Made by a program: the position numbers and the translations under genes. Below are positions 1-46,347 of a stretch of 64,000 nt of DNA, one piece after another. How positions within the stretch are numbered: position 1 is the first letter of the stretch; each line of letters opens with the position of its first letter. Location: NCBI GenBank assembly GCA_024690825.1, contig JAILOK010000094.1, forward strand, positions 1 to 64,000, written 5' to 3'. The notes below the pieces were generated by a model. It was not told the DNA's origin and made no database searches. It saw only the letters and a program-made list of their open reading frames with translations. This DNA comes from Lachnospiraceae bacterium. Its GTDB lineage: Bacteria > Bacillota > Clostridia > Lachnospirales > Lachnospiraceae.

Positions 1-153
1 TGTGAGGATGCTGTTATTATCTTAGCGAATGCTCAATATACAGCAAATCCGCACACGGATGTGCGGATAGGGGCAAATGCGGAGCGAAGCGGAGCCAGAC
101 ATGGATGTCGGGTTGCCCCGGTTGCGTGACCGGCCACAGACCGTATCATGAGC
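1..153. other. Hairpin-rich intergenic segment downstream of the molybdenum operon
   Basis: No convincing gene is visible. The segment holds several perfect inverted repeats. A 7-bp stem with a cgga loop lies at 49-66. A GGGGCAA/TTGCCCC pair at 70-76 and 113-119 encloses a GACAT-gg-ATGTC hairpin at 98-109. A CCGG pair follows near 119-134. No stem is followed by a long T-run on the minus strand, so a standard intrinsic terminator is not obvious. The style resembles other structured intergenic patches in this window. Confidence 0.4.
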
Positions 154-263
154 TTAGATAATAAAGCGTCCGAACAACCGCACCATAATATACGTACCCC
201 ATCCGGATGCCAATAATATCAAACCTGCGAGCAAAACATATACCTGCGTCCCGGCCAACTCTT

Positions 264-1133
264 TTATACAGCTCTGTAGTCCCCGTGGATGCCTCCGGTC
301 TTGGAGGTCAGTCTGATATCTGTCAGCACGATGTCCCGCTGAACCGCCTTGCACATATCGTAGACAGTCATTGCCGCAACGGAACAGGCACAGATGGCTT
401 CCATTTCAACGCCGGTCTTCCCGGTACATTTGACGAAGGATTCGATCTCGACAGCCTTATCCTCTTCATTCAGACGGAGCCTTACATCACACTTTTCGGT
501 TATTATGGGATGACACATCGGGATCAGATCAGGAGTCCTCTTTGAGCCCATGATGCCTGCGATCTGGGCAACGGTAAGCACATCGCCCTTTTTGATGCTC
601 CCGCTTTTGATAAGTTCAAAAGTCTTTTCGTTCACCAGAACCTTTGCCGAAGCACACGCCGTTCTTTCGGTAATATCCTTGTATGAGACATCCACCATCC
701 TGGCATTTCCCTCATCATCAAAATGCGTCAGGACATTCCCGTCATCTGTCTGTATTTTTTTTGCTATCCAATCCGCAAGTTCCTCTGCGTTCATGGTATT
801 TGATTCCATATCGATCTTTGGAATATCCGCAGCCTTGTAACCCTCGACCAGGACGATATCGAAACCGGAAGCCGAACTAATCATCTCATTTAAGGTTCTC
901 GGTCTTTCGCTGATCTTTGCGGACCGGGTATGGGACGATATCATGACCTCATCCGCTCCGGCCTGCGTGAAACGATAGGTGTCCTTTCCTTCCCTGTCCA
1001 TCGTAAACTCGTGGACATCATGCTTTATCACAGCGACCTTAAAACCTTTCTTTTTAAGATGGGGTATCAGCGCCTCAATGAGGGTAGTCTTCCCGCTGCC
1101 CGAGTATCCCGAAAAACCTAATACAAACGCCAT
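264..1133 (-). CDS. MobB-MoaC fusion: GTP-binding molybdopterin-guanine dinucleotide factor joined to cyclic pyranopterin monophosphate synthase
   Basis: 289 residues with two domains. Residues 1-130 are MobB-like: a P-loop GYSGSGKTT close to the N terminus, then the VIKHD..EF segment and a VLVEGYK strand typical of MobB. Residues 132-289 are a complete MoaC with PMCHPI, KTGVEMEA and the DMCK motif, which carries the catalytic Asp and Lys. MoaC converts the 3',8-cyclo-GTP made by MoaA into cPMP; MobB assists GMP attachment in bis-MGD formation. The two steps sit at opposite ends of the pathway, so the fusion joins early and late reactions in one cytoplasmic protein. It is the last large gene of a minus-strand operon, 2 bp after the preceding stop. 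Domain identities are clear; the value of the fusion is inference. Confidence 0.93.
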   Translation of the reverse strand: MAFVLGFSGYSGSGKTTLIEALIPHLKKKGFKVAVIKHDVHEFTMDREGKDTYRFTQAGADEVMISSHTRSAKISERPRTLNEMISSASGFDIVLVEGYKAADIPKIDMESNTMNAEELADWIAKKIQTDDGNVLTHFDDEGNARMVDVSYKDITERTACASAKVLVNEKTFELIKSGSIKKGDVLTVAQIAGIMGSKRTPDLIPMCHPIITEKCDVRLRLNEEDKAVEIESFVKCTGKTGVEMEAICACSVAAMTVYDMCKAVQRDIVLTDIRLTSKTGGIHGDYRAV

Positions 1134-1135
1134 GT

Positions 1136-2158
1136 TTAATACCTCCCGAAGGTACAGTTCGGATAATGACAGTTACTGCACATCTGGCATAGACCGCCGT
1201 CACCGAGCCTTATAAGATCTTCCTTTGTAAGCTTTAATCCGGTAAATATCTGCGGCAGCAGGACATCAAAGATCGTGGTCGGAAGACTGATGGCGGCACC
1301 CGGCACGCCGAGTACCGGTATATCTCCTATATATGCTGCAAGAGTCATGTTTCCGGGCTGGGACGGAACGCCGTGGCTTAATATTTCCGCTCCCAAAGCC
1401 TTGATGGCTCCGGGTGTAAGGTCGTCGGGATCTACGGACATGCCTCCCGTGAAAATGAGGAAATCCGCCCCTTCTTCCATCAGTTCCTTTGCCGCATTTA
1501 TTATCATCTGCATGTCATCATCGCAGATCTTTATGCCCGTTATGGAGCCTGGGAAATAAGAAAGCTTCTTTCTGACCACAGGTTCAAACCTGTCTTTTAT
1601 GCGTCCTTCATAAACCTCAGAGCCGGTGATGATGATACCGGATTTAAGATCTTTGTAAGGCAGAAGTTCGAGCAGATGCGACGCTGCGCAGAGTTTTTCT
1701 GCCTCATCTATCTGTGCTTTATCCGTAAACAGAGGCACGATCCTCATGGAAGCAAGCCGGTCTCCCTCCTCCACCCTGTAATGATCGGGAAGAGTTGTTA
1801 TGGTTATATCCCCGATGCTGTTTATCTTTTTGAGAAGCTTCGTATCAACCTTAAGCATTCCTTTTATATCGGAAACGAGCAGCATCTTGCCTTCGGAGGG
1901 TCCTTCAAAATGAGCGCCCTCTATCTTTGTCATATCCGCCAAAGCCCTGGCGCAGTCCTCCTCATGAAGCATTCCGGGATCGATGTCTCCCGCAAACACT
2001 GTCTTTTTCCCGATATCAAGAAGCTTCGGTATATCCTCTTCCTCTATGACATGACCGCGTCTGAAAAGCGGCCCCTTGAAGCCGTCAAACATAGCCGTGA
2101 TGTCATGGCCAAGTGCCATCCCGACGGCATCTTCAACCTTTATCTTTTTCATGCTCAT
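1136..2158 (-). CDS. MoeA/MogA-like molybdopterin-binding protein with cysteine-rich C terminus
   Basis: 340 residues. The C-terminal half (about 165-315) is a MoCF_biosynth (MogA/MoeA domain III) fold with GIIITGSEV, FTGGMSVDPDDLTPGA and VLGVPGAA, which bind molybdopterin in this family. The N-terminal half is a divergent MoeA-like region. The end is unusual: a CxxCxxCxxxxC cluster in the last 16 residues, suited to a metal or Fe-S site. The start overlaps the moeA stop by 4 bp (ATGA), so translation is coupled. It probably acts in Mo insertion or cofactor handling beside true MoeA. A competence-damage CinA-like protein is less likely given the neighbours. Confidence 0.85.
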   Translation of the reverse strand: MSMKKIKVEDAVGMALGHDITAMFDGFKGPLFRRGHVIEEEDIPKLLDIGKKTVFAGDIDPGMLHEEDCARALADMTKIEGAHFEGPSEGKMLLVSDIKGMLKVDTKLLKKINSIGDITITTLPDHYRVEEGDRLASMRIVPLFTDKAQIDEAEKLCAASHLLELLPYKDLKSGIIITGSEVYEGRIKDRFEPVVRKKLSYFPGSITGIKICDDDMQMIINAAKELMEEGADFLIFTGGMSVDPDDLTPGAIKALGAEILSHGVPSQPGNMTLAAYIGDIPVLGVPGAAISLPTTIFDVLLPQIFTGLKLTKEDLIRLGDGGLCQMCSNCHYPNCTFGRY

Positions 2159-3372
2159 ATCAAAAATCCTTCCACAGTCTCACCTGTCTTTAACGGCGCA
2201 GTCCCCTCCGGAATACATGCATAGGCATTGCAGAGAGCCGCAGAGCTTATCACTATATTTCCCTGCTCACGGCGCGGCTCAAAGACTGCCATGCCTTCTT
2301 CTATCGAAAATACTCCCCTTATGAAACGCATTCCCTTTCCGGTCTTTTTAATATCTTTCTTAAGCATCATCCTGATCATCTTATGATCATGATCGTCAAG
2401 TCCGGCAAGCTTCCTTAATGCCGGATAACAGATGCACTGGAGGTTTGTAAGTGCCGATGCGGGATTGCCGGAAAGCGCGAGCATCAGCCTTCCATGCTTG
2501 ACTCCGTAGGCGCAGGCCATTCCGGGTTTCATTGCGATACCATTTACAATGATCTCGTATCCGGCCTCCTCCATCGCCTTTGGCACCAGATCAAAATCTC
2601 CTGCAGACACTCCGCCGGTCGATATGATGATATCGCTGATGAGCTCTGCCGTAAGGATCTTATTATACAGATCCTCCACATCATCCTGCGCATGTCCCGC
2701 GGAAACGGCATCGAAACCGATACGCCTTAAAGCGCCCGAAATCGTATATCTGTTGGAATTTCTGATCTTTCCGGGCTGCAGCGGTTCATTTATGTCAACC
2801 ACCTCGTCCCCTGTTGACAAAAGCGCTGCAACAGGTCTTTTGTATACCGGTATCTCCGTCATCCCGAGGGAGGCTGCGATCCCTGAAACAGCGGGATCAG
2901 CAGGTGTTCCCTTCTTTGCAAGAAGTGCTCCGTTTGCAATATCCTCGCCGGCTTTTATTATATTGTCACCGGCAAAATACTGCTGTTTTATGTCAACCGA
3001 TTCATCGGTAAAATCCGTGTCCTCGTATTTACATACGGCATCGGCACCCTCAGGTATCGGAGCACCCGTCATGAGTCTGACCGCCGTACCGCTTTCCACC
3101 TGCTTTTGCGCAACCTGCCCTGCCCTTATGTTTTCGATCACCTTTAATGTGACTTTGTTTTTTTCATCCGCGCCGGCGGTATCTTCTGCCCTGAAGGCAT
3201 AGCCGTCATAGGGGGAGCGGGCAAAATTCGGCACATTCTGATCGGATACTATATCCTCTGCCAGAACCCTGCCATACAGATCCTCCGGAGACACTTTTTC
3301 CTTACCAACATGGTCCGCGTATTTCAGCAGTATCCGCACTGCCTCTCCATACTCTGTTCTTCTCATGATCAT
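2155..3372 (-). CDS. moeA: Molybdopterin molybdenumtransferase MoeA
   Basis: 405 residues, the normal length. It shows the MoeA N-terminal pattern (VLAEDIVSDQNVPNFARSPYDGYA), the TGAPIPEGADAV motif, the domain III stretch STGGVSAGDFDLVPK and GNPASALTNL. The enzyme inserts molybdate into adenylated molybdopterin in the cytoplasm. It lies between modB upstream and the MoeA-like gene, which it overlaps by 4 bp, so uptake and insertion are probably co-transcribed. Confidence 0.95.
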   Translation of the reverse strand: MIMRRTEYGEAVRILLKYADHVGKEKVSPEDLYGRVLAEDIVSDQNVPNFARSPYDGYAFRAEDTAGADEKNKVTLKVIENIRAGQVAQKQVESGTAVRLMTGAPIPEGADAVCKYEDTDFTDESVDIKQQYFAGDNIIKAGEDIANGALLAKKGTPADPAVSGIAASLGMTEIPVYKRPVAALLSTGDEVVDINEPLQPGKIRNSNRYTISGALRRIGFDAVSAGHAQDDVEDLYNKILTAELISDIIISTGGVSAGDFDLVPKAMEEAGYEIIVNGIAMKPGMACAYGVKHGRLMLALSGNPASALTNLQCICYPALRKLAGLDDHDHKMIRMMLKKDIKKTGKGMRFIRGVFSIEEGMAVFEPRREQGNIVISSAALCNAYACIPEGTAPLKTGETVEGFLI

Positions 3373-3417
3373 TTTCCCTCGTAACCGGTTTTCCGTATGC
3401 TAAGTATCGATACAAAT

Positions 3418-4077
3418 CTACCTGCTTTTCTTACGTTCAAATATATTTATCGCAAGAAGCACCACAGCCGATATCGCAATATTTATCAATACCCACCTAA
3501 GCGCCAGTGCATCGTTATCGGTTCTCCACAGCTGATAAACAGTCGTGGATATTGTCGCAGTCCTTCCGGGCGTATATCCTGCTATCATCGTGGTGGCACC
3601 GTATTCTCCGAGTGCTCTTGCAAAGGCAAGGACAGTTCCTGCTATGATACCCGCCCTGCAACAGGGAAGGGTTATCCTGAAAAATATATACGGTCTGCCA
3701 AGTCCCAGAGTCTGCCCGGCCAGAGTCAGATTTTCATCGTAGGCTTCAAAGGCTCCTCTTGCCGTCCTGTACATGAGCGGAAAAATAACGACGCTTGTTG
3801 CAAATATCGCTGAGTACCAGGTCATGGTAAGCTTTGCATCAAATATTCTTAAAAACCATGCACCCGCCGGTCTTTTTGGGCCGAGGACGCGCAAAAGCAG
3901 ATAGCCCACGACAGTAGGCGGCAATACCAGAGGCAGAGTGAAGATGCAGTCAAGTATCCCTTTTAATACCCGCGGGAGCTTTACTACAAGACATGCAGCG
4001 GCTATGCCAAGCACGAAAATGATGCCCGTACTTATCAGGGCTATCCTTATGGAATTGTATAAAGGGTAAAGATCCAT
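3418..4077 (-). CDS. modB: Molybdate ABC transporter permease ModB
   Basis: 219 residues with about five hydrophobic segments. It carries the inner-membrane-component loop ALGEYGATTMIAG, which docks on the ATPase, followed by GRTATISTTVY, both diagnostic of ModB. It forms the channel for molybdate or tungstate with ModA and ModC. The start follows the modA stop by 1 bp. modC is not adjacent: it lies about 3.8 kb upstream in the same cluster, beyond an ABC exporter and mobA. Confidence 0.95.
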   Translation of the reverse strand: MDLYPLYNSIRIALISTGIIFVLGIAAACLVVKLPRVLKGILDCIFTLPLVLPPTVVGYLLLRVLGPKRPAGAWFLRIFDAKLTMTWYSAIFATSVVIFPLMYRTARGAFEAYDENLTLAGQTLGLGRPYIFFRITLPCCRAGIIAGTVLAFARALGEYGATTMIAGYTPGRTATISTTVYQLWRTDNDALALRWVLINIAISAVVLLAINIFERKKSR

Positions 4078-4078
4078 A

Positions 4079-4927
4079 TTATTTTATGCAGGTAAATCCG
4101 ACGCTTTCAAATATTCTGCTGCTTTCGTCTCCCGTCAGATGATCAAGGAAGGCCTTTGCTTCATCGGCATGCTTTGATCCCTTCAATACCGCTGCCGGAT
4201 AGATGACCTGTCCGCACATTTCGGGAGTTGCGGTATCAACAGATTTAAGCCCTGCCGAATATGCATCGGTGGAGTAAATGATGCCGCAGTCGACCGCTGC
4301 TTCCTTTATCTGTGTCGTGACCTCCTTGACATTGCTTCCGTAGGTGATCACGCCGTTCTTTGCAAGTTCTGACTCATCAAGTTCGTAAAAGGCCAGGATC
4401 TTCTGCGTATACTGGCCTACCGGGACATCCTCATTTCCCATTGCCATAAGGATGCTTTTATCCTTAAGCCCCTTTACCAGATCATCATATGAATTTATAT
4501 TCTTTGGATTGTCATCGGGAATTGCAAGCACTACCTTGTTTTCCAGGATATCGATGCGGGTATCGTGATCGATGAAGTCAAGACCGTCGGGATTTTTTTC
4601 GTCCCCTGCGGTGATATCAAGCTGGTCCATCTGCTTTGGTGCTGCCGAGATGAAGATATCGCAGTCAGCTCCTTCTTCTATCTGGGTCTTCAGGGTGCCT
4701 GATGAATCGAGATTGCAGGTTATCCTGATGCCGGGGTTTGCGGCTTCATATTCCTTTACTATCTGCTCGAGAGTCTCGGTCATTGATGCTGCCGCAAATA
4801 CTATGATCTCTGTGGACGGTGTTTCTGCTGCAGCCGGCTGCGTGGTCGTTGCCGTGCTCTGTGCGCATCCCATGAGTGAACACACTGTCAGAGACAGCAC
4901 TGCAAGTAATGCTGTTGCTTTTTTCAT
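4079..4927 (-). CDS. modA: Molybdate-binding lipoprotein ModA
   Basis: 282 residues from the ATG at 4927, chosen because an AAGGAG site lies just upstream and the protein then begins with a lipoprotein signal (MKKATALLAVLSL, then a lipobox ending in Cys). The longer open frame to 5101 would be untranslated leader. ModA motifs are clear: VFAAASMTETL, SSGTLKTQIEEGADCDIF, and C-terminal VIYPAAVLKGSK..AKAFLDHL. It captures molybdate or tungstate outside the membrane for ModB/ModC. A long structured leader precedes it. Confidence 0.94.
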   Translation of the reverse strand: MKKATALLAVLSLTVCSLMGCAQSTATTTQPAAAETPSTEIIVFAAASMTETLEQIVKEYEAANPGIRITCNLDSSGTLKTQIEEGADCDIFISAAPKQMDQLDITAGDEKNPDGLDFIDHDTRIDILENKVVLAIPDDNPKNINSYDDLVKGLKDKSILMAMGNEDVPVGQYTQKILAFYELDESELAKNGVITYGSNVKEVTTQIKEAAVDCGIIYSTDAYSAGLKSVDTATPEMCGQVIYPAAVLKGSKHADEAKAFLDHLTGDESSRIFESVGFTCIK

Positions 4928-38394: not shown

Positions 38395-39621
38395 TTATTT
38401 GAGATATCTCAGCTTCAGATCCGTTTTGTAAAAGTCCTTTGTGGTGCAGCCGGCTCTGCCGCCTCCGGCGCAGGCGCAGGCACACGCACAGGCACAGGCA
38501 CACGAACTGTGGGCACAGGAGCTGTGATGGCTGCTGCCTCTCGAACTCGAACTGTGCGATGACCTCGAAGATGTGTAGACCGGACGCGGTACCGGAACCA
38601 CATGAACCCTCATGTAGGTATTGGGAGAATCATTATACTTAAACTCTCCCTCCGTGGCATATTTCTTCCGCTCTTCGGGCGGCAGTTCCTTTTCCTCCAC
38701 GACCTCCTCGCTCTTAACGAGGCTCCTGCCGCAGTATTCACACTTCGTCTGGTTTTCCCCGCGGACAGATCCGCAGCCCGGACAGGAATCAAAGTAAACG
38801 ATCTTCGTCCTGGTTATCTTCTTTCCGGCAGTTCCGGAGCGGAAGTTTGCCCTCGCATCATAGGCCGTTTTTATTATGAGAGCAAAAATGCTCCTGAATA
38901 TCAGACCCGGTATGATGATCGTCACAAAAGCCCCGATGATCGTGAAGATCAGATCAAACGGACCATCCGTCCTGCCGCCGGTCTCGTCAACCTTTTTGCT
39001 GAGGTCAAAGCCGTAAGCATCATTGGGATAGGTCACCTTTACGGTCATCTTGTCCCCGGGAGCCATGTCTTTTTCCATCCAGACAAGCGAGCCCACGATC
39101 TCAAGACAGTACGGATCCCAGCTGTAAGCCTTGTCCGCCTTCCATCTGACCGTCAGCTCGTCCACCGGCGCCTCATCAAACCAGCCCGGCGTGAAGGCAT
39201 AGACCGTATAGCCTTCCTCAAGCATATCAACCTGATACAGATAGTCCTGCACGATGCTGAATTCAAAGATCACCGTCTCTCCGGCATAATAATCCCTGTC
39301 AAGATCGATCCTTACATATGACCCGCCGGAGGAGGTATATCCGATGCCTCTTATATTATCCGTAAGCGCCTCAAGATCCGAATAATGGCTGTTGGGTATA
39401 CCGATCTTTACCCAGCTTAAAGGCCCTTCCGAATCGGAGTCGAGCACCTTCCATTCGATGTGATATTTCATCGTGACGGTTGCATCATCATTTACCGATG
39501 CATTGATCTCATAATCAACGATCTCGTCAAGGGGAGATGCAAAAACGGGGACCGTAAAAAGAACCGTCACCGCCGCCAGTATAATAAGAACGGGTATGGA
39601 TCTCTTCAATATCTTCATCAT
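38395..39621 (-). CDS. DUF2207-like membrane protein with Ser/His-rich region and (Cys-Ala)6 tail
   Basis: 408 residues from the ATG at 39621, which overlaps the radical SAM stop (ATGA). A signal/TM helix (8-27) is followed by an extracellular beta-rich domain of about 190 residues (YEINASVNDDATVTMKYHIEWKV at its start, as in DUF2207). A second TM helix lies at about 223-250. The cytoplasmic end has a zinc ribbon (Cys 280, 283, 294, 297), a Ser/His stretch (about 350-369) with one Cys-Ala, then six Cys-Ala repeats (374-385), GGGRAGC and a basic end. The repeat uses TGT and TGC and two Ala codons, so it is kept at protein level. The tail faces the cytoplasm, where the adjacent radical SAM enzyme could modify it. 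Function is unproven. Confidence 0.8.
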   Translation of the reverse strand: MMKILKRSIPVLIILAAVTVLFTVPVFASPLDEIVDYEINASVNDDATVTMKYHIEWKVLDSDSEGPLSWVKIGIPNSHYSDLEALTDNIRGIGYTSSGGSYVRIDLDRDYYAGETVIFEFSIVQDYLYQVDMLEEGYTVYAFTPGWFDEAPVDELTVRWKADKAYSWDPYCLEIVGSLVWMEKDMAPGDKMTVKVTYPNDAYGFDLSKKVDETGGRTDGPFDLIFTIIGAFVTIIIPGLIFRSIFALIIKTAYDARANFRSGTAGKKITRTKIVYFDSCPGCGSVRGENQTKCEYCGRSLVKSEEVVEEKELPPEERKKYATEGEFKYNDSPNTYMRVHVVPVPRPVYTSSRSSHSSSSRGSSHHSSCAHSSCACACACACACAGGGRAGCTTKDFYKTDLKLRYLK

Positions 39622-40991
39622 ATGCCGCACCCCTTTCTCAACGGACAGTTCCCCGTCATCTGCGCAGAAAAGCGCCGCCTTTCCCTGCATTTTTCACTTT
39701 CCCATATCTTTTCCCAGTCATCTTCCCGCATGTCGCCGAGCACATCATCCGAAAGCCAGCTCTGGCAGGGTACAGCCTTTCCGCCGGGAGTGACTGCCAT
39801 ATTTGAAAGGCATGCTCCGCAGGACGGTGTCGATATCCCAAGTTTTTCAAATAGCTCCTGATCAACCCAGCCGGGCGAGGTGAAGCTTATCTCCATCCCG
39901 TTTGCAAAGCAGTATTCAACGGCTTTTGTAAGCACTTCACTCATCTTTTCCTTTGAAAGCTGCAGACTCTCCGATTCGGGTTTTTCCGCATTTCCCGTAG
40001 TGATAAGTCCCGAACAGGTGACATAGGTGACGCCAAGTTCATGAAGGAATTCCAGGGTTTTTACATAGTCCTCGTTCAGGGTGCAAAGCGGCGTGTTAAC
40101 GCTGACACTCATATCAAGAGAAAGAGCATTTTTTATTCCGTCGCAAGTCCTGTCATAGCCGTCTGCCCCGACGAGTTTATTATGGATCTCTTTATCATGC
40201 GAATAGAAAGTGATCTGGACGCTGTCAAGGGAAGCCGCTTTGAGCGCGTGGCAGTACTCGGGCGTAAGCTTTATCCCGTTGGTGTTGAGCCTTGTCACAA
40301 ACCACTGCGCATGATTGATGAGCGTGACCAGGTCGTCCCTCATGGTAGGTTCTCCTCCGGTGAAGGTGACCTGCGGCACTCCGATATTTTTAAGTTTGTC
40401 TATGATGTTCTTCCAGTCTTCCGTTGAAAGCTCCCGCTCTCCCGCATGCTCCTGTCCTGCGGCATAGCAGTGGAGGCAGCGCAGATTGCAGTTCCATTTA
40501 TTTTCTTTTGTCATGGCGGATACCATCAGATCCATCCTGTGGGGAGCGCGCATGTAGGGCGCGTATTCTCCCATGGTCATAAACCCGATCTTCTCATCGG
40601 GTTCCTCCCTGTATGCGATCTTTTTGAAGGTATCCATGATCCTTGTGATATCGCCTGAAATGATCTTTTTTGAAAGCAGCGGATATACCCTGCGGACTCT
40701 TTTGCAGGTCTCCTTCACGATCTTTTGTGTCTCTTCCTCCGTGACCGGCCGTCCGCTGTATTTGTTGACCTCGTCTATGAACTCGGAAAGCAGTATTGTC
40801 CACGATACATTAACGGGTATGATATCCTGCCCGTTTATAATGGCGGCAGCCGGTCCGATCTCCCCGCCTTCGACCTTCGGCGGGATGAGATGGATCCTTA
40901 CCACTCCCGGTCCGTCCGGGTTAAGAGTGGTATGTTTTACGCCGTTATAATTTTCCTGAGCGTATTTAAGTACCCGTTTTGAAATCCTCAT
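39618..40991 (-). CDS. Radical SAM/SPASM enzyme, candidate peptide-modifying maturase
   Basis: 457 residues. About 165 residues of unassigned N-terminal domain come first. Next is a radical SAM core with CNLRCLHC (Cys 168, 172, 175) and the TFTGGEPTMRDD motif. The C terminus is SPASM-like and Cys-rich (SCGACLSN..., VPCQSWLSDD..LGDM, EKC, GNCPLRKGCGI), with places for one or two auxiliary clusters. Such enzymes usually modify ribosomal peptides or proteins, for example by thioether or C-C links. The neighbour encoded with a 4-bp overlap has a (Cys-Ala)6 tail and is the natural substrate candidate. thiT lies 30 bp upstream on the same strand. Confidence 0.9.
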   Translation of the reverse strand: MRISKRVLKYAQENYNGVKHTTLNPDGPGVVRIHLIPPKVEGGEIGPAAAIINGQDIIPVNVSWTILLSEFIDEVNKYSGRPVTEEETQKIVKETCKRVRRVYPLLSKKIISGDITRIMDTFKKIAYREEPDEKIGFMTMGEYAPYMRAPHRMDLMVSAMTKENKWNCNLRCLHCYAAGQEHAGERELSTEDWKNIIDKLKNIGVPQVTFTGGEPTMRDDLVTLINHAQWFVTRLNTNGIKLTPEYCHALKAASLDSVQITFYSHDKEIHNKLVGADGYDRTCDGIKNALSLDMSVSVNTPLCTLNEDYVKTLEFLHELGVTYVTCSGLITTGNAEKPESESLQLSKEKMSEVLTKAVEYCFANGMEISFTSPGWVDQELFEKLGISTPSCGACLSNMAVTPGGKAVPCQSWLSDDVLGDMREDDWEKIWESEKCRERRRFSAQMTGNCPLRKGCGI

Positions 40992-41021: not shown

Positions 41022-41714
41022 TTATTCTCCCCTTGCCATTTTGGTGACCACCTTCAGGGCATCCTTAACAAGCGGAAAATTTATTATTATCAGCGTGATC
41101 GCAGCCTCGGCAAGTATATATGCATAATTATACGCTATCGGATAGACTGCCGCCAGCTTTGGCGGAAAATTGTCAGGCATGTAATCCATCCAGTAAAGAT
41201 AACCGCCCAGGGACTGTATTGCTCCGCGCGCGATCACCGAGACGATGTAGCCGGTCACCAAAGCGTTCTTTTTCATTCTGTAAAACAGGCCCGACAGTCC
41301 CAGTGCCGTAAAGGCAAAGAAATAATCAAGACACGCCTGGAGCGGATCCATAATATAGCTTCCGCCACCCTGTATGAACTGAAGACAGCCGTAAACAAAG
41401 CCTGCGATAAGTCCAACCTTTGGTCCGTACCAGTATCCTATGAGTACCACAAAAAGCATTGAACACAGTGTCACCGAGCCTCCCCACGGCATCCTGAAGA
41501 TCCTCAGATATGAAAGAACAAAGGCAAGAGCAACAGACAATGAGGTAAAGCAAAGCACCCTGGCATCCATGGCCGTACTCTTCTTTGGATCCTTCTTTCT
41601 CGATCTTTGAAAACCGGTGAAAAACAACAGCAGAACAGCAACTACGATGAGAGTGATGGCTCCCGCTCCGGTAAGCGAATAGTAGCCATCCTCAGAATTT
41701 AAGAAAAAAGACAT
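41022..41714 (-). CDS. thiT: Thiamine ECF transporter S component ThiT
   Basis: 230 residues with about six or seven hydrophobic helices. WGGSVTLCSMLFVVLIGYWYGPKVGLIAGFVYGCLQFI and DYFFAFTALGLSGLFY are the ThiT signature regions that contact thiamine. It has an additional N-terminal TM helix (about 15-35) before the usual start of the family. A TPP riboswitch lies just upstream, as expected for thiamine uptake. The energising ECF module is not in this window. Confidence 0.93.
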   Translation of the reverse strand: MSFFLNSEDGYYSLTGAGAITLIVVAVLLLFFTGFQRSRKKDPKKSTAMDARVLCFTSLSVALAFVLSYLRIFRMPWGGSVTLCSMLFVVLIGYWYGPKVGLIAGFVYGCLQFIQGGGSYIMDPLQACLDYFFAFTALGLSGLFYRMKKNALVTGYIVSVIARGAIQSLGGYLYWMDYMPDNFPPKLAAVYPIAYNYAYILAEAAITLIIINFPLVKDALKVVTKMARGE

Positions 41715-41914: not shown

Positions 41915-42370
41915 CTTCAGTCCCTCAAAATCGTTCTGGCGCAGGGCTTCATAGAGGATTACAGCGACTGAGTTGGCAAGATTTAACGAACGTTCGTCTT
42001 CAAACATCGGGATCCGTATACAGCGGGTCCTGTTTGCTTTCAGGATATCCTCGGGGATCCCGGCGCTTTCCTTTCCGAACATAATAAAATCGTCCATGCC
42101 GAAACTCACATCCGCGTAGGTCCTGCCGGCCTTTGTCGTGGCATACCAGATCTTCGCGTCCTTATTGCGATGAATGAAGTCGTCATAGTTTACATAATCT
42201 GACACATCGAGCCTGTCCCAGTAATCCATGCCGGCGCGTTTCAGTCCCCTCTCATTTAAGATAAATCCGAAGGGCCTTATAAGATGCAGCCTTGTGTTTG
42301 AAGCCACGCAGGTCCTGCCGATATTTCCGGTATTTTCCGGTATCTCCGGTTCAAGAAGAACTATATTCAT
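41891..42370 (-). CDS. trmL: tRNA (cytidine(34)-2'-O)-methyltransferase TrmL, 3' end in a repeat
   Basis: 159 residues from the ATG at 42370 with an AGGTGA site. It has the SPOUT signatures of TrmL: MNIVLLEPEIPENTGNIGRTC, LHLIRPFGF, MFGKESAGIPEDIL and IPMFEDERSLNLANSVAVILYEALRQ. It methylates the wobble base of tRNA-Leu isoacceptors. The last residues (SGGRFF) and the stop codon come from REP-like hairpin B, so the original 3' end was replaced. The core is complete, so function is likely kept. Confidence 0.93.
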   Translation of the reverse strand: MNIVLLEPEIPENTGNIGRTCVASNTRLHLIRPFGFILNERGLKRAGMDYWDRLDVSDYVNYDDFIHRNKDAKIWYATTKAGRTYADVSFGMDDFIMFGKESAGIPEDILKANRTRCIRIPMFEDERSLNLANSVAVILYEALRQNDFEGLKVSGGRFF

Positions 42371-42495
42371 GTCCGCTTCACCTTTCATTTTTCTATATAG
42401 TACCATATATTGCCCGATCACTCACCGATGTGTTGAAAAAAAGCGGGATTTGTGCGTTAATATGTGGAGGAGCAGTATGCTCAGCGGAGGGTTAT

Positions 42496-45400
42496 ATGGA
42501 AAAGAAGCACAGGGATGAAGGACCCGATCCGGTATCCTTTTCAAATATCGCAACCACGCTTGCGAGGGATTATGACAGTATTTATGTGATCGATCCCGAA
42601 AACTACAACTATGTCAAATATTCGATATCAGGATCAGATAATGAACTTGTTGTCAGGTCATCGGGAGACGATTTCTTTTCCGATATACCCGAAAATGTCG
42701 AAAAACTGGTTTATAAGGATGATCAGGAATCCTTCCTGAATTCCCTGAGGAAACCTGTTTTTCTGAAGGCAATAAAGAAGGAAAAGTCTGTTATCGTGCA
42801 GTACAGACTTATGGTGAAGGGAGTTCCCAGACACTATGCCTTCAAGGCAATGGAGGGTTCAAACGGACTCATCCTCATCGGCGTTCTGAATATAGATGAA
42901 GCAATGATCCGCGAAAAGAAACGCCAGGCCGGGGAAAAGATCTATCTTGAGATAACCGAGTCTCTGGCTTCTTTATATGAAGTCATCTATCACATAGATA
43001 TCAATACCGGGCATTATACCGAATACAGCGCAAGCGCCGGTTTTTCAAAACTGGGACTGAAGAAGGACGGCAAGGATTTCTTCAAAGACATAAAAAAGAA
43101 TCTCTATCATGTCACCGATCAGGCATATGTTGAAACGGTACTGAACTTCCTCGACAGGGACAATCTGATAAAAAACCTGAATGTAAAGCCTTATATATCT
43201 CTTGACTACAGGCAGATCCTTGATGACAAAATGCAGGATGTAACGCTCGTGGCATTCCGTCAGAAGGGAAATCCCGAAAAGATTATCGTGGCCGTGATAA
43301 ATCTGAACGACCACAGGATGTCTGACAGACAGGAAGAGATCTATTCAAATGTGGCGCATGCCCTGGCCAGCAGATACGAGGTGATCTTTCAGATCAATAC
43401 CGATACAAATGAATATATACAGTATAATGCTGACGGGGATAATAAGATCCTTGAAAATGTCAGAACCGGCAGGGATTTCTTTGTCGATGCAAAATCCGAT
43501 ATCAAAAAAATAATAGCCCCGGATGACAGGGACATGCTGCTTGCCGAGATGGAAAAGAAGCCGCTTCTCGAAAATCTTGACAGGTATGGCGCGATCACCC
43601 TGACCTACAGACATCTGGAGGGGGATGACACCAGATATATGTCACTTTTTGCCGTCAGGCCCAAAAAAGATGACAGACATATCATTATCGGACTTATTGA
43701 TGTTGATGAACAGCTTAAAAAGCAAAGATCATTGACGACCCAAAGCGATTCCTTCGTTGATATGGCCATGACGCTGGCACAGAGATTCGAAGTGATCTAC
43801 CGGGTAAATATCGAAACCGACGAATATTCGGAGTATAGTCTGAACGAACGATATACCCAGCTTAAAAACGGAAAGAGGGGAGTCAGATTTTTTGATGAAA
43901 CAGGCGAGTACATGAAAAACGAGGTATATCCGGATGATTATCCCATGATATCAAGAGTAATGGGAAAGGATAATCTCATAAAAAGCCTGAAAAAAACCGG
44001 GAAGGAATGCTTTACCTACAGAGTAATGCTAGACGGCAGACCTCAGTATATGATGCTCTTTGTTGTGCAGCCCCGGAAGGACTCAAAGCATATAATAATA
44101 GCTGCCGCAAATGTTGATGCCGCAAGAAAAAGAGAACTTGACCTGACCGCATTCGCCGATGGCATGGATCCTGCCAATAAAGACCTGCTCACCAATGTCA
44201 GAAATAAAAGAGCCTATGTGTATCTTGAGTCCGAGCTTGATGAACTCATAGCATCCGATGAAAAACCGGAATTTGCGGTAGTTACCTGTGATGTGAACGA
44301 TCTGAAAAAAATAAATGATACAAAGGGGCACGAGACAGGTGATGAATATATCAGAAAAGCCTGTAATATGATCTGCTCGATCTTTGAGCACAGCCCCGTT
44401 TTCAGGATCGGCGGGGATGAGTTCGCTATCATCTTAAGGGATCAGGATTATGAAAAACGCGAAAGCCTGATATCAAACCTTTTGTATGAAAGAGAAAAAA
44501 GCCGCAAAAATTCCGAGGTGACCATAGCCTACGGAATATCCGATTATGATCCCGATAAGGATATGCGGGTCGCTGATGTATTTAAGAGAGCCGACTCTGC
44601 AAGAAAAGAAAATAAAAAACAGTTCAAAAAAGGAAAGAAGCTGGTAAATTCGGCAGAGCCCGTCCTCCTCTACCGCGACAGGCCCGAGAGGTTTTACAGT
44701 TTATTTGAAGACCTTGTCAGACAGATGACCACCCAGAGCGGATCGGATATGAGAAAAATAGAAAAGCTGCTTTCCGATATCGCCATAATGTTCCGTCTGT
44801 CAAAGGGTGTCACGACTATATATAAAAATGTGGACGAAGAGAGAAAAGGCACGGGTGAAACATTGTGTTCCTTTGACATGAAAGTGAAGGATGTTCCGGT
44901 ATGTACCGTCAGAACCGTTTCAAGCATAATGGCGATAGTCACGATGACCTTATATATGCCTGAAGATATAGAACCGCTTTCCGAAGAGGAGCTTGGCAAG
45001 GTTAAGCTTGTGATGTCTTCCGTAGTATCCTTTGTAAGCCGCAACAGGATGAGGAATATCGTAGACAGGATGGCATTTTATGATGATGACGGATACCGCA
45101 ATTACAGAGGGTATACCTATTACATGATGGAGATCAGCCCCGAGGACAGGGCGGTCGCTTATTATAATCTGAGGCAGTTCGGCATAATAAACAGCGAGTA
45201 TGGCAAGAAAAGTGCGGACCTGATAATGAAAAAGCATTATGAGGGCTTAAAGGAGCTGATAGGCGACAGGGGATCGGTATTCAGGCTCGGAGGCGATTCC
45301 TTCCTGGCTGTCTTCGGACAGGAACAGCTTGATCCCGTAACGGGATACCTGACTCATGCCGATATATATCTTGACAGATCCGGCGGCAGAACGATACCAC

Positions 45401-46347
45401 TTGCAACAAGAGCCGGCATATATATAATACCTTCCGGCAAAAAAATGGCCGAATCCGGCGAATATGTCGGAAAAGCCGCCATGGCCTATAAAACAGCCCA
45501 GGATCTCGGCGATGAAGCTGTATATTTCTATGATGAAAAGATGGGCAGCAAGGTGATGAAGGGTGATAAGATCCGCAAAGACTTCCCCGGAGCGATTGAA
45601 AGGGAGGAATTTAAGGTTTATTATCAGCCCAAGGTTGACATAAATTCCGGGGAAATGGTCGGCGCCGAGTCGCTGTGCAGATGGATCAAAAATGAAAAGC
45701 TTATCCCTCCCGGAGATTTTATTCCCGTTCTTGAACGGACGGATGATATCTGCCGGCTTGATTTTTACATGCTCGAGCATGTGTGCATGGATCTTCGAAG
45801 ATGGCTTGACGAGGGAAAGAAATGTCCCAGGATATCGGTGAACTTCTCAAGAAGACATATGGCCGATCCGAGGTTTGACGAAACCATTACAGGTATCGTT
45901 GACAAATATGATATACCCCGGCACCTGATAGAGATCGAGCTTACCGAGACCACGACCGATGTGGAATTTGCCGACTTAAAGCGTGTGGTTGCCGCATTGC
46001 AGAAGGTCGGCATGTACACAGCCGTCGACGATTTCGGCATCGGATACTCTTCGCTCACACTGATCAAGGATATTCCCTGGAACATCCTCAAGGTGGACAA
46101 GAGCTTCCTTCCCGAGGAGGGTTCGGACAAGGATGAAAATGAAGAGATCATGTACAGATATGTTGTGCATATGACAAAAGAACTCGGCATCGAATGTGTC
46201 ACCGAAGGTGTCGAGACTGTCGAGCAGGTGAGGATCCTGCGCGAGAACGGCTGCGACATAGCTCAGGGATATCTCTTCGACAGACCGTTGCCCGTTTCCG
46301 AATTTGAGACAAGGCTTGATGATCACAGTTATAAAATATATTTATAA
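42496..46347 (+). CDS. Four-sensor GGDEF-GGDEF-EAL c-di-GMP protein
   Basis: 1283 residues from the ATG at 42496 with a GGAGGG site. Four related sensor modules of about 133-139 residues start near residues 22, 157, 290 and 428; each begins with an LAxxYEVIY-type helix-strand and an acidic turn. GGDEF 1 (about 560-700) is complete (CDVNDLKKINDTKGHETGDEY, IGGDEFAII at ~638) without an obvious RxxD inhibitory site. GGDEF 2 is degenerate (LGGDSF near 931). EAL (about 1030-1275) reads ESL but keeps ELTET, DDFGIGYSSL, LKVDK and TEGVET, so hydrolysis is possible. No TM helix is evident. A sugar transferase gene follows after 27 bp. Confidence 0.9.
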   Translation: MEKKHRDEGPDPVSFSNIATTLARDYDSIYVIDPENYNYVKYSISGSDNELVVRSSGDDFFSDIPENVEKLVYKDDQESFLNSLRKPVFLKAIKKEKSVIVQYRLMVKGVPRHYAFKAMEGSNGLILIGVLNIDEAMIREKKRQAGEKIYLEITESLASLYEVIYHIDINTGHYTEYSASAGFSKLGLKKDGKDFFKDIKKNLYHVTDQAYVETVLNFLDRDNLIKNLNVKPYISLDYRQILDDKMQDVTLVAFRQKGNPEKIIVAVINLNDHRMSDRQEEIYSNVAHALASRYEVIFQINTDTNEYIQYNADGDNKILENVRTGRDFFVDAKSDIKKIIAPDDRDMLLAEMEKKPLLENLDRYGAITLTYRHLEGDDTRYMSLFAVRPKKDDRHIIIGLIDVDEQLKKQRSLTTQSDSFVDMAMTLAQRFEVIYRVNIETDEYSEYSLNERYTQLKNGKRGVRFFDETGEYMKNEVYPDDYPMISRVMGKDNLIKSLKKTGKECFTYRVMLDGRPQYMMLFVVQPRKDSKHIIIAAANVDAARKRELDLTAFADGMDPANKDLLTNVRNKRAYVYLESELDELIASDEKPEFAVVTCDVNDLKKINDTKGHETGDEYIRKACNMICSIFEHSPVFRIGGDEFAIILRDQDYEKRESLISNLLYEREKSRKNSEVTIAYGISDYDPDKDMRVADVFKRADSARKENKKQFKKGKKLVNSAEPVLLYRDRPERFYSLFEDLVRQMTTQSGSDMRKIEKLLSDIAIMFRLSKGVTTIYKNVDEERKGTGETLCSFDMKVKDVPVCTVRTVSSIMAIVTMTLYMPEDIEPLSEEELGKVKLVMSSVVSFVSRNRMRNIVDRMAFYDDDGYRNYRGYTYYMMEISPEDRAVAYYNLRQFGIINSEYGKKSADLIMKKHYEGLKELIGDRGSVFRLGGDSFLAVFGQEQLDPVTGYLTHADIYLDRSGGRTIPLATRAGIYIIPSGKKMAESGEYVGKAAMAYKTAQDLGDEAVYFYDEKMGSKVMKGDKIRKDFPGAIEREEFKVYYQPKVDINSGEMVGAESLCRWIKNEKLIPPGDFIPVLERTDDICRLDFYMLEHVCMDLRRWLDEGKKCPRISVNFSRRHMADPRFDETITGIVDKYDIPRHLIEIELTETTTDVEFADLKRVVAALQKVGMYTAVDDFGIGYSSLTLIKDIPWNILKVDKSFLPEEGSDKDENEEIMYRYVVHMTKELGIECVTEGVETVEQVRILRENGCDIAQGYLFDRPLPVSEFETRLDDHSYKIYL

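Follow-up and report, generated by a model that had tools for sequence, protein, structure and literature searches.

Two overlapping genes in a 64,000-nucleotide stretch of a Lachnospiraceae genome (GCA_024690825.1, contig JAILOK010000094.1; the whole stretch is hereafter the window) raise the question of whether a radical S-adenosylmethionine (SAM) enzyme modifies the tail of a membrane protein. Both lie on the minus strand between positions 38,395 and 40,991, with the enzyme gene upstream and a 4-bp overlap into the membrane-protein gene, which can start at an ATG at 39621; this layout, proposed in an earlier examination of the DNA (the sequence-only reading), agreed with the open reading frames (ORFs) of the window. 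An in-frame upstream ATG at 39690 would lengthen the membrane protein if used. From its N terminus, this protein comprises a signal or transmembrane stretch, a predicted extracellular domain, a transmembrane stretch, a predicted cytosolic zinc ribbon, a Ser/His-rich linker and a Cys-Ala tail, and it ends in HHSSCAHSSCACACACACACAGGGRAGCTTKDFYKTDLKLRYLK; the zinc ribbon, the linker, the six Cys-Ala units and the GGGRAGC that had been described were all present. To our knowledge, the known roles of such radical SAM maturases lie mainly in small secreted peptides and in the active sites of a few enzymes. Comparison with related loci strongly supports the predicted enzyme-substrate link, and we consider it very probable that the enzyme modifies the Cys-Ala tail. 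With less assurance, we also hold the whole reading to be probable, namely, a two-gene modification system whose thioether-linked tail would be kept on the membrane protein.

The distribution of enzyme and tail was compared in three genome samples, which overlap and whose totals are not additive. Tail-bearing membrane protein and enzyme occurred in the same 11 of 145 genomes of relatives (enzyme E up to 1e-40; the query for the partner was the whole protein, which could overlook a tail carried by a different scaffold), in the same 8 of 344 genomes of an order sample (enzyme E up to 1e-60) and in the same 11 of 391 genomes of a class sample (enzyme E up to 1e-50, scoring up to four candidates per genome). 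Every genome in these samples thus held both or neither, as expected of the dedicated pair that had been proposed, and a tail protein commonly found without the enzyme, named beforehand as evidence against such a pair, was not seen; at the thresholds used, enzyme or tail alone was found in none of the 27 distinct positive genomes. Among the relatives there were 13 membrane-protein matches, of which 11 were strong and each carried the tail; the two weak ones (3e-4 and 9e-4) covered the ribbon region only and had no tail. A ninth tail-profile match in the order sample (G220, 6.6e-4) and a twelfth in the class sample (G643, 8.7e-4) likewise had no Cys-Ala motif. The weakest full-length enzyme match in the class sample stood at 2.9e-149, and a contig-edge fragment at 9.8e-64. 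In two genomes (G613 and G650), the enzyme and tail matches were on different contigs; in G650 a partner gene directly after the enzyme runs off the contig end, and the enzyme frame holds two stops.

Gene order was recorded at loci retrieved from a genome collection with the enzyme alignment. With a limit of E up to 1e-3, loose enough that other radical SAM proteins may be included, at least 496 of 586 candidate stretches matched. The 80 with the highest scores (62 to 78% identity), hereafter the named loci, were retained; they are close relatives and lean to rumen metagenome-assembled genomes (MAGs), and it is the three genome samples above that span the wider class. These were mostly rumen or gut MAGs of Lachnospiraceae, Clostridia or Oscillospiraceae, with one Coriobacteriaceae and one Eggerthellaceae. 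A tail reading frame followed the enzyme in 77 of the 80, and the contigs of the other three end soon past the enzyme (L048, 324 bases; L092, 696; L095, 387). Taking the tail-gene start nearest to the enzyme stop, a possible start lay within 40 bp of that stop at 75 loci, 54 of them overlapping (25 by 4 bases, 15 by 11) and 21 more within 40 bp. The exceptions were L112, with the tail gene 109 bp from the enzyme, and L111, with the tail in a separate 148-amino-acid (aa) frame. Two loci showed unusual arrangements: in L042, tail proteins in opposite directions flank one enzyme gene (38-1300, minus strand, and 2907-4151, plus strand), and in L187 (G656, 1282-4575), two tandem tail proteins lie upstream of one enzyme, the second with one Cys of the run changed to Tyr.

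The tail was the best-conserved part of the membrane partner. Across 79 aligned relatives (the window protein, 5 from other genomes and 73 of 77 from the named loci; L046, L069, L080 and L111, being near-duplicate, N-containing, cut or partial, were excluded), mean column entropy was 0.15 bits over residues 376-398, lower than in the zinc ribbon (1.18) or the extracellular domain (1.64). The six core Cys were Cys in 474 of 474 alignment cells, the last five spacers were Ala in 394 of 395, and GGGRAGC was almost fixed. Run length in 78 tails was five (37 tails), six (39) or seven units (2), and more distant loci had four-unit runs (L137, partial L141 and L130). Members that lack the zinc ribbon (L015, and also L118 to L120) retain the tail. 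The last five units of the 78 tails were encoded by 76 DNA sequences yielding two peptides. In runs chosen as Cys followed by Ala or Gly, Cys codons were TGT (248) and TGC (185), and spacer codons were GCC (244), GCA (85), GCG (75), GCT (27) and GGA (2); entropy was 1.26 bits at third codon positions, 0.00 at first and 0.02 at second. The claim that mixed repeat codons point to selection on the protein therefore stood, the third positions varying and the others hardly at all, and an origin of the tail as a slippage repeat or by chance was ruled out by the codon mixture together with the near-fixed peptide.

The segment after the core behaved differently. A divergent enzyme subfamily (G650, G721 and G729), 45% identical to the window enzyme, is accompanied by tails that keep the Cys-Ala run and [G/V]GGRVGCS and have ERGYQVLHWL in place of TKDFYxTxLK, so that the segment is KDFY-type in the first subfamily and SERGYQVLHWL-type in the second. 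A segment that changes with the enzyme while the core stays is suggestive of a recognition site, in a comparison that rests on three genomes. In one of these, G729 (L186, 1663-4592), the tail gene is interrupted by frames that by eye resemble a transposase.

The tail should be cytosolic, on the same side as the enzyme, a placement predicted because the mid-protein stretch has more Lys and Arg after it than before it. Per 25 residues beside this stretch, Lys plus Arg averaged 5.0 on the tail side versus 1.6 on the other, and of the 79 proteins 71 were richer on the tail side, 5 had the same number on both sides and 3 had fewer on the tail side, which supports the orientation proposed earlier. 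The same reading had counted two transmembrane helices; hydrophobic stretches were found at the N terminus and in mid-protein, and the first may be a cleaved signal peptide. The CxxC...CxxC zinc-ribbon pattern occurred in 78 of 79 relatives, L015 being the one without it. A match to DUF2207 (PF09972) in the window protein fell below the gathering score (12.8 of 24.4 bits); weak matches (E up to 0.1) were obtained for 37 of the 79 relatives, the best at 1.1e-4.

The enzyme consists of an N-terminal domain (about residues 1 to 160), a radical SAM barrel and a C-terminal SPASM/Twitch domain, with Pfam matches to Radical_SAM (1.9e-24) and SPASM (1.2e-7; 32.4 bits, cut-off 21.5). The CX3CX2C radical SAM motif is present as C168, C172 and C175, invariant in 80 rows plus 10 diverse rows. 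Across the latter, which span both subfamilies, nine Cys are invariant (C168, C172, C175, C326, C391, C394, C409, C435 and C449). SPASM and Twitch domains carry a C-terminal auxiliary-cluster Cys formula, CX9-15GX4C, which is present here as C394-x9-G404-x4-C409. Full SPASM domains have a second auxiliary-cluster motif, CX2CX5CX3C, which was not seen in the 10 diverse rows, where only C435 and C449 are conserved past C409. The pattern therefore fits one predicted auxiliary cluster (Twitch) better than two, and the earlier label, "SPASM", is better given as SPASM/Twitch. Among profiles of solved structures, the best match was SkfB (3.7e-18), a sactisynthase; 5wgg (3.5e-8) and 5v1q (8.3e-8), which we take to be the peptide cross-linkers CteB and SuiB, also matched. 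Such matches rank the class of the enzyme and do not prove its reaction. Viperin-type matches were the sole sign of a defense system and were confined to the radical SAM part, and that reading was rejected.

Table 1. Positions of the two genes and of the elements of the membrane protein within the window
Feature	Position	Strand	Basis
Radical SAM/SPASM-Twitch enzyme, 457 aa	39618..40991 including stop (coding 39621-40991; stop codon ends 39618)	-	ORF; Pfam; invariant Cys
DUF2207-like membrane protein, 408 aa, candidate substrate	38395..39621 including stop (coding 38398-39621)	-	ORF; alignments; topology
Mid-protein transmembrane stretch, about residues 226-262	38836..38946	-	Hydropathy and Lys/Arg bias
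Zinc ribbon CPGCG...CEYCG, residues 276-310	38692..38796	-	CxxC...CxxC pattern
Ser/His-rich linker with further Cys (HHSSCAHSS)	38503..38556	-	Alignments; kind similar, length variable
Tail core CACACACACACAGGGRAGC, residues 374-392	38446..38502	-	Entropy; alignment
Segment after core, TTKDFYKTDLKLRYLK, putative recognition segment	38398..38445	-	Differs between the two enzyme subfamilies

Neighboring genes were scanned on both sides of the pair. Upstream, 51 of the 77 nearest genes, nearly all same-strand, were covered, and the commonest family among the 25 of 50 listed was GGDEF (9 of 51 proteins); downstream, the commonest among the 25 of 82 listed was polyprenyl synthetase (6 of 71). Among these listed families no protease or transporter recurred beside the pair (transporters appeared singly or in pairs, along with one peptidase, none repeated across loci), and no pathway genes recurred. 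The largest flank cluster, present at 30 of 80 loci on both sides, was considered as a partner gene and rejected: it brings frames together loosely, by single linkage, and the longest of them is a histidine kinase hybrid, so that it represents a mixture of unlike signaling proteins and not a single partner. The clusters next in size cover 10 and 9 loci. A link to cyclic di-GMP was also considered, as a within-locus comparison had GGDEF nearest upstream in 9 of 54 same-strand cases versus 20 of the 411 remaining genes of the flanks (P = 0.003 by Fisher's test); after one lineage was collapsed this became 5 of 50 versus 14 of 375 (P = 0.06), and GGDEF was the nearest downstream gene in 0 of 71. 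The association is a lead only. In the window, a GGDEF-domain protein of up to 1351 aa is encoded two genes away from the pair (42292-46347, plus strand), and a ThiT-like energy-coupling factor thiamine transporter subunit (41022-41714, minus strand) lies directly upstream of the enzyme gene. No plasmid match was found, and a phage collection gave one match, L130 (MT837216.1, an unverified record labeled "Bacteriophage sp.", human feces). This contig, the case for mobile-element or phage cargo, is probably mislabeled bacterial DNA because genes for the bacterial release factor RF3 and for YitT accompany the pair, and that reading was rejected. A search of viral contigs with one degenerate pattern of the tail gave no exact match.

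In the explanation that we favor, the substrate of the enzyme would be the C-terminal tail that its membrane partner holds in the cytosol, with the segment after the core (KDFY... or SERGYQVLHWL) as docking site. The Cys of the run would form thioether bonds whose likeliest partners are the alanines between them, at the alpha or beta carbon, or else residues in the GGGRAGC strand. As no single gene among the flank families listed is found repeatedly next to the pair, the product would probably remain attached, with neither excision nor export. Thioether cross-links are the likeliest product, although we give them no better than an even chance; they are favored because SkfB is the best match, the Ala spacers are near-fixed and alanine is among the thioether partners in ruminococcin C (PMC6779426, available text). 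The near-fixed spacers suggest a part in the bond or in recognition, because mere metal binding would be expected to allow Ser, Gly or Lys in their place. That alanine itself is the bond partner we propose only tentatively. Our best guess for the finished tail is a rigid end, protected from disulfide formation, that would couple an envelope-sensing ectodomain to the cell interior. A bolder proposal, possible if somewhat doubtful, is a radical route to lanthionine and a class of membrane-tethered cross-linked tails, in which a Cys-Ala ladder of lanthionine-like or alpha-thioether bridges would make a permanently attached, RiPP-like tail a working part of a membrane receptor. Several observations weigh against the favored explanation. 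The other matches of the enzyme do not point to thioether chemistry in particular: the next solved-structure matches after SkfB are tetraether lipid synthase (7.5e-15) and PqqE (5e-10), followed by BtrN and MoaA. Of 73 NCBIfam models matching the enzyme at E up to 1, none of the best 25 reached its curated cut-off, and NirJ2 and MoaA at their head fell far short of it (best TIGR04055, 113.8 of 500 bits). The secondary-structure order of the N-terminal domain by eye suggests a RiPP recognition element (RRE; RiPP, ribosomally synthesized and post-translationally modified peptide), but an hhalign comparison with 27 PqqD-type rows from 30 loci, at least two of which look misframed, gave a probability of 0.5%, and no PqqD match emerged when 8 N-terminal pieces were scanned against Pfam. 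Distances between enzymes and between membrane-protein bodies over 70 loci correlated only moderately (Spearman 0.33; as high in 0 of 999 permutations). Co-occurrence would also fit an enzyme acting elsewhere on its partner, or a partner serving as electron donor.

Other explanations account for part of these data. It is conceivable, if unlikely, that the Cys-Ala run binds metal or an Fe-S cluster directly while the enzyme modifies another site or one tail residue. With Cys at every other position, the thiols of an extended strand would all point to the same side, and next to the run lies a linker rich in His and Ser, accompanied in most members by a zinc ribbon; metal-binding CxC strings are, however, generally freer in sequence than these nearly invariant Ala spacers and GGGRAGC, and metal binding leaves unexplained that no tail without the enzyme was found in the samples. 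The Cys could instead be altered otherwise (for example to formylglycine, as by anSME) or residues epimerized, without cross-links, as relatives of the anSME and YydG types are generally known to act on proteins or peptides. We think this quite unlikely: we know of no target motif of either that resembles the Cys-Ala tail, and SkfB, the top match among solved structures, is a cross-linking enzyme, although those ranked after it carry out other chemistry. Sactipeptides and ranthipeptides, whose conserved cores adjoin a maturase, invite the idea of the tail as a precursor core that is borne by a membrane leader of unusual size and is subsequently excised and exported. This is highly improbable, as no listed flank family accounts for more than 9 of the 51 proteins scanned upstream or 6 of the 71 scanned downstream; moreover, many antimicrobial cores vary between species, whereas this core hardly varies and is followed by a conserved segment. 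The heme-pathway, MoaA and lipid-synthase families among the enzyme matches would suit conversion of a small molecule, with the Cys-rich tail anchoring the enzyme or passing electrons. There is little to recommend this reading, since no pathway genes recur nearby among the flank families listed and the two enzyme subfamilies share the core but differ in the segment that follows it, which fits recognition.

If modification of the tail by its neighboring enzyme is correct, this widespread and closely linked pair would give radical chemistry a structural or signaling role in gut and rumen bacteria, at the inward-facing end of a membrane protein. Comprising a single enzyme and a short, fixed substrate, and lacking further genes that recur, the proposed system would be easy to test.

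A description of the enzyme-tail pair was not found in the portions available of the open-access literature searched, and the comparisons below likewise draw on the available text of each source. The nearest enzymes are SkfB, the sporulation killing factor sactisynthase, and the related thioether maturases CteB and AlbA, which have a radical SAM barrel and a C-terminal Twitch or SPASM domain with about five Cys and act on Cys-bearing peptides (PMC6231123); SkfB is a sactisynthase with an RRE, a barrel and a Twitch domain (PMC6231123). In contrast, the putative substrate at the present loci is a tail with a Cys-Ala core on a membrane protein, mostly of about 310 to 450 aa, no leader-removal or export genes recur among the flank families listed, and the C-terminal Cys pattern of the window enzyme is not CX33CXC; against the RRE of SkfB stands the low hhalign score of the enzyme N terminus, obtained with partly misframed reference rows. 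The maturases RumMC1/2 of ruminococcin C resemble the present case in coming from gut Firmicutes and in having alanine among the thioether partners (PMC6779426), yet their product is a secreted hairpin antimicrobial peptide and not a tethered tail. Asp-Cys repeat and TVGG repeat RiPP systems also place a radical SAM enzyme beside a repetitive core, but with small peptides and other repeats (PMC9062424); the network in that study kept enzymes of 340 to 450 aa, and the window enzyme falls outside this filter. On the membrane side, the DUF2207 protein SMU.243 of Streptococcus mutans has a large extracellular N terminus and a Gly/Ser-rich C terminus on the inner side (PMC10457818, which prints "intercellular", taken here as intracellular), and an S. 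mutans member of the family was linked to stress tolerance and biofilm formation (PMC10457818). The orientation is the same and nearly half of the members match this family weakly, whereas the window protein scores below the gathering threshold, has a Cys-Ala tail and is accompanied by a dedicated radical SAM enzyme. The short precursor, leader removal and export genes of sactipeptides and ranthipeptides were not found at these loci among the families listed; what the pair shares with them is a Cys-rich conserved core encoded beside a maturase, and what sets it apart is the pairing of a SPASM/Twitch-type enzyme with the tail of a membrane protein as its predicted substrate.

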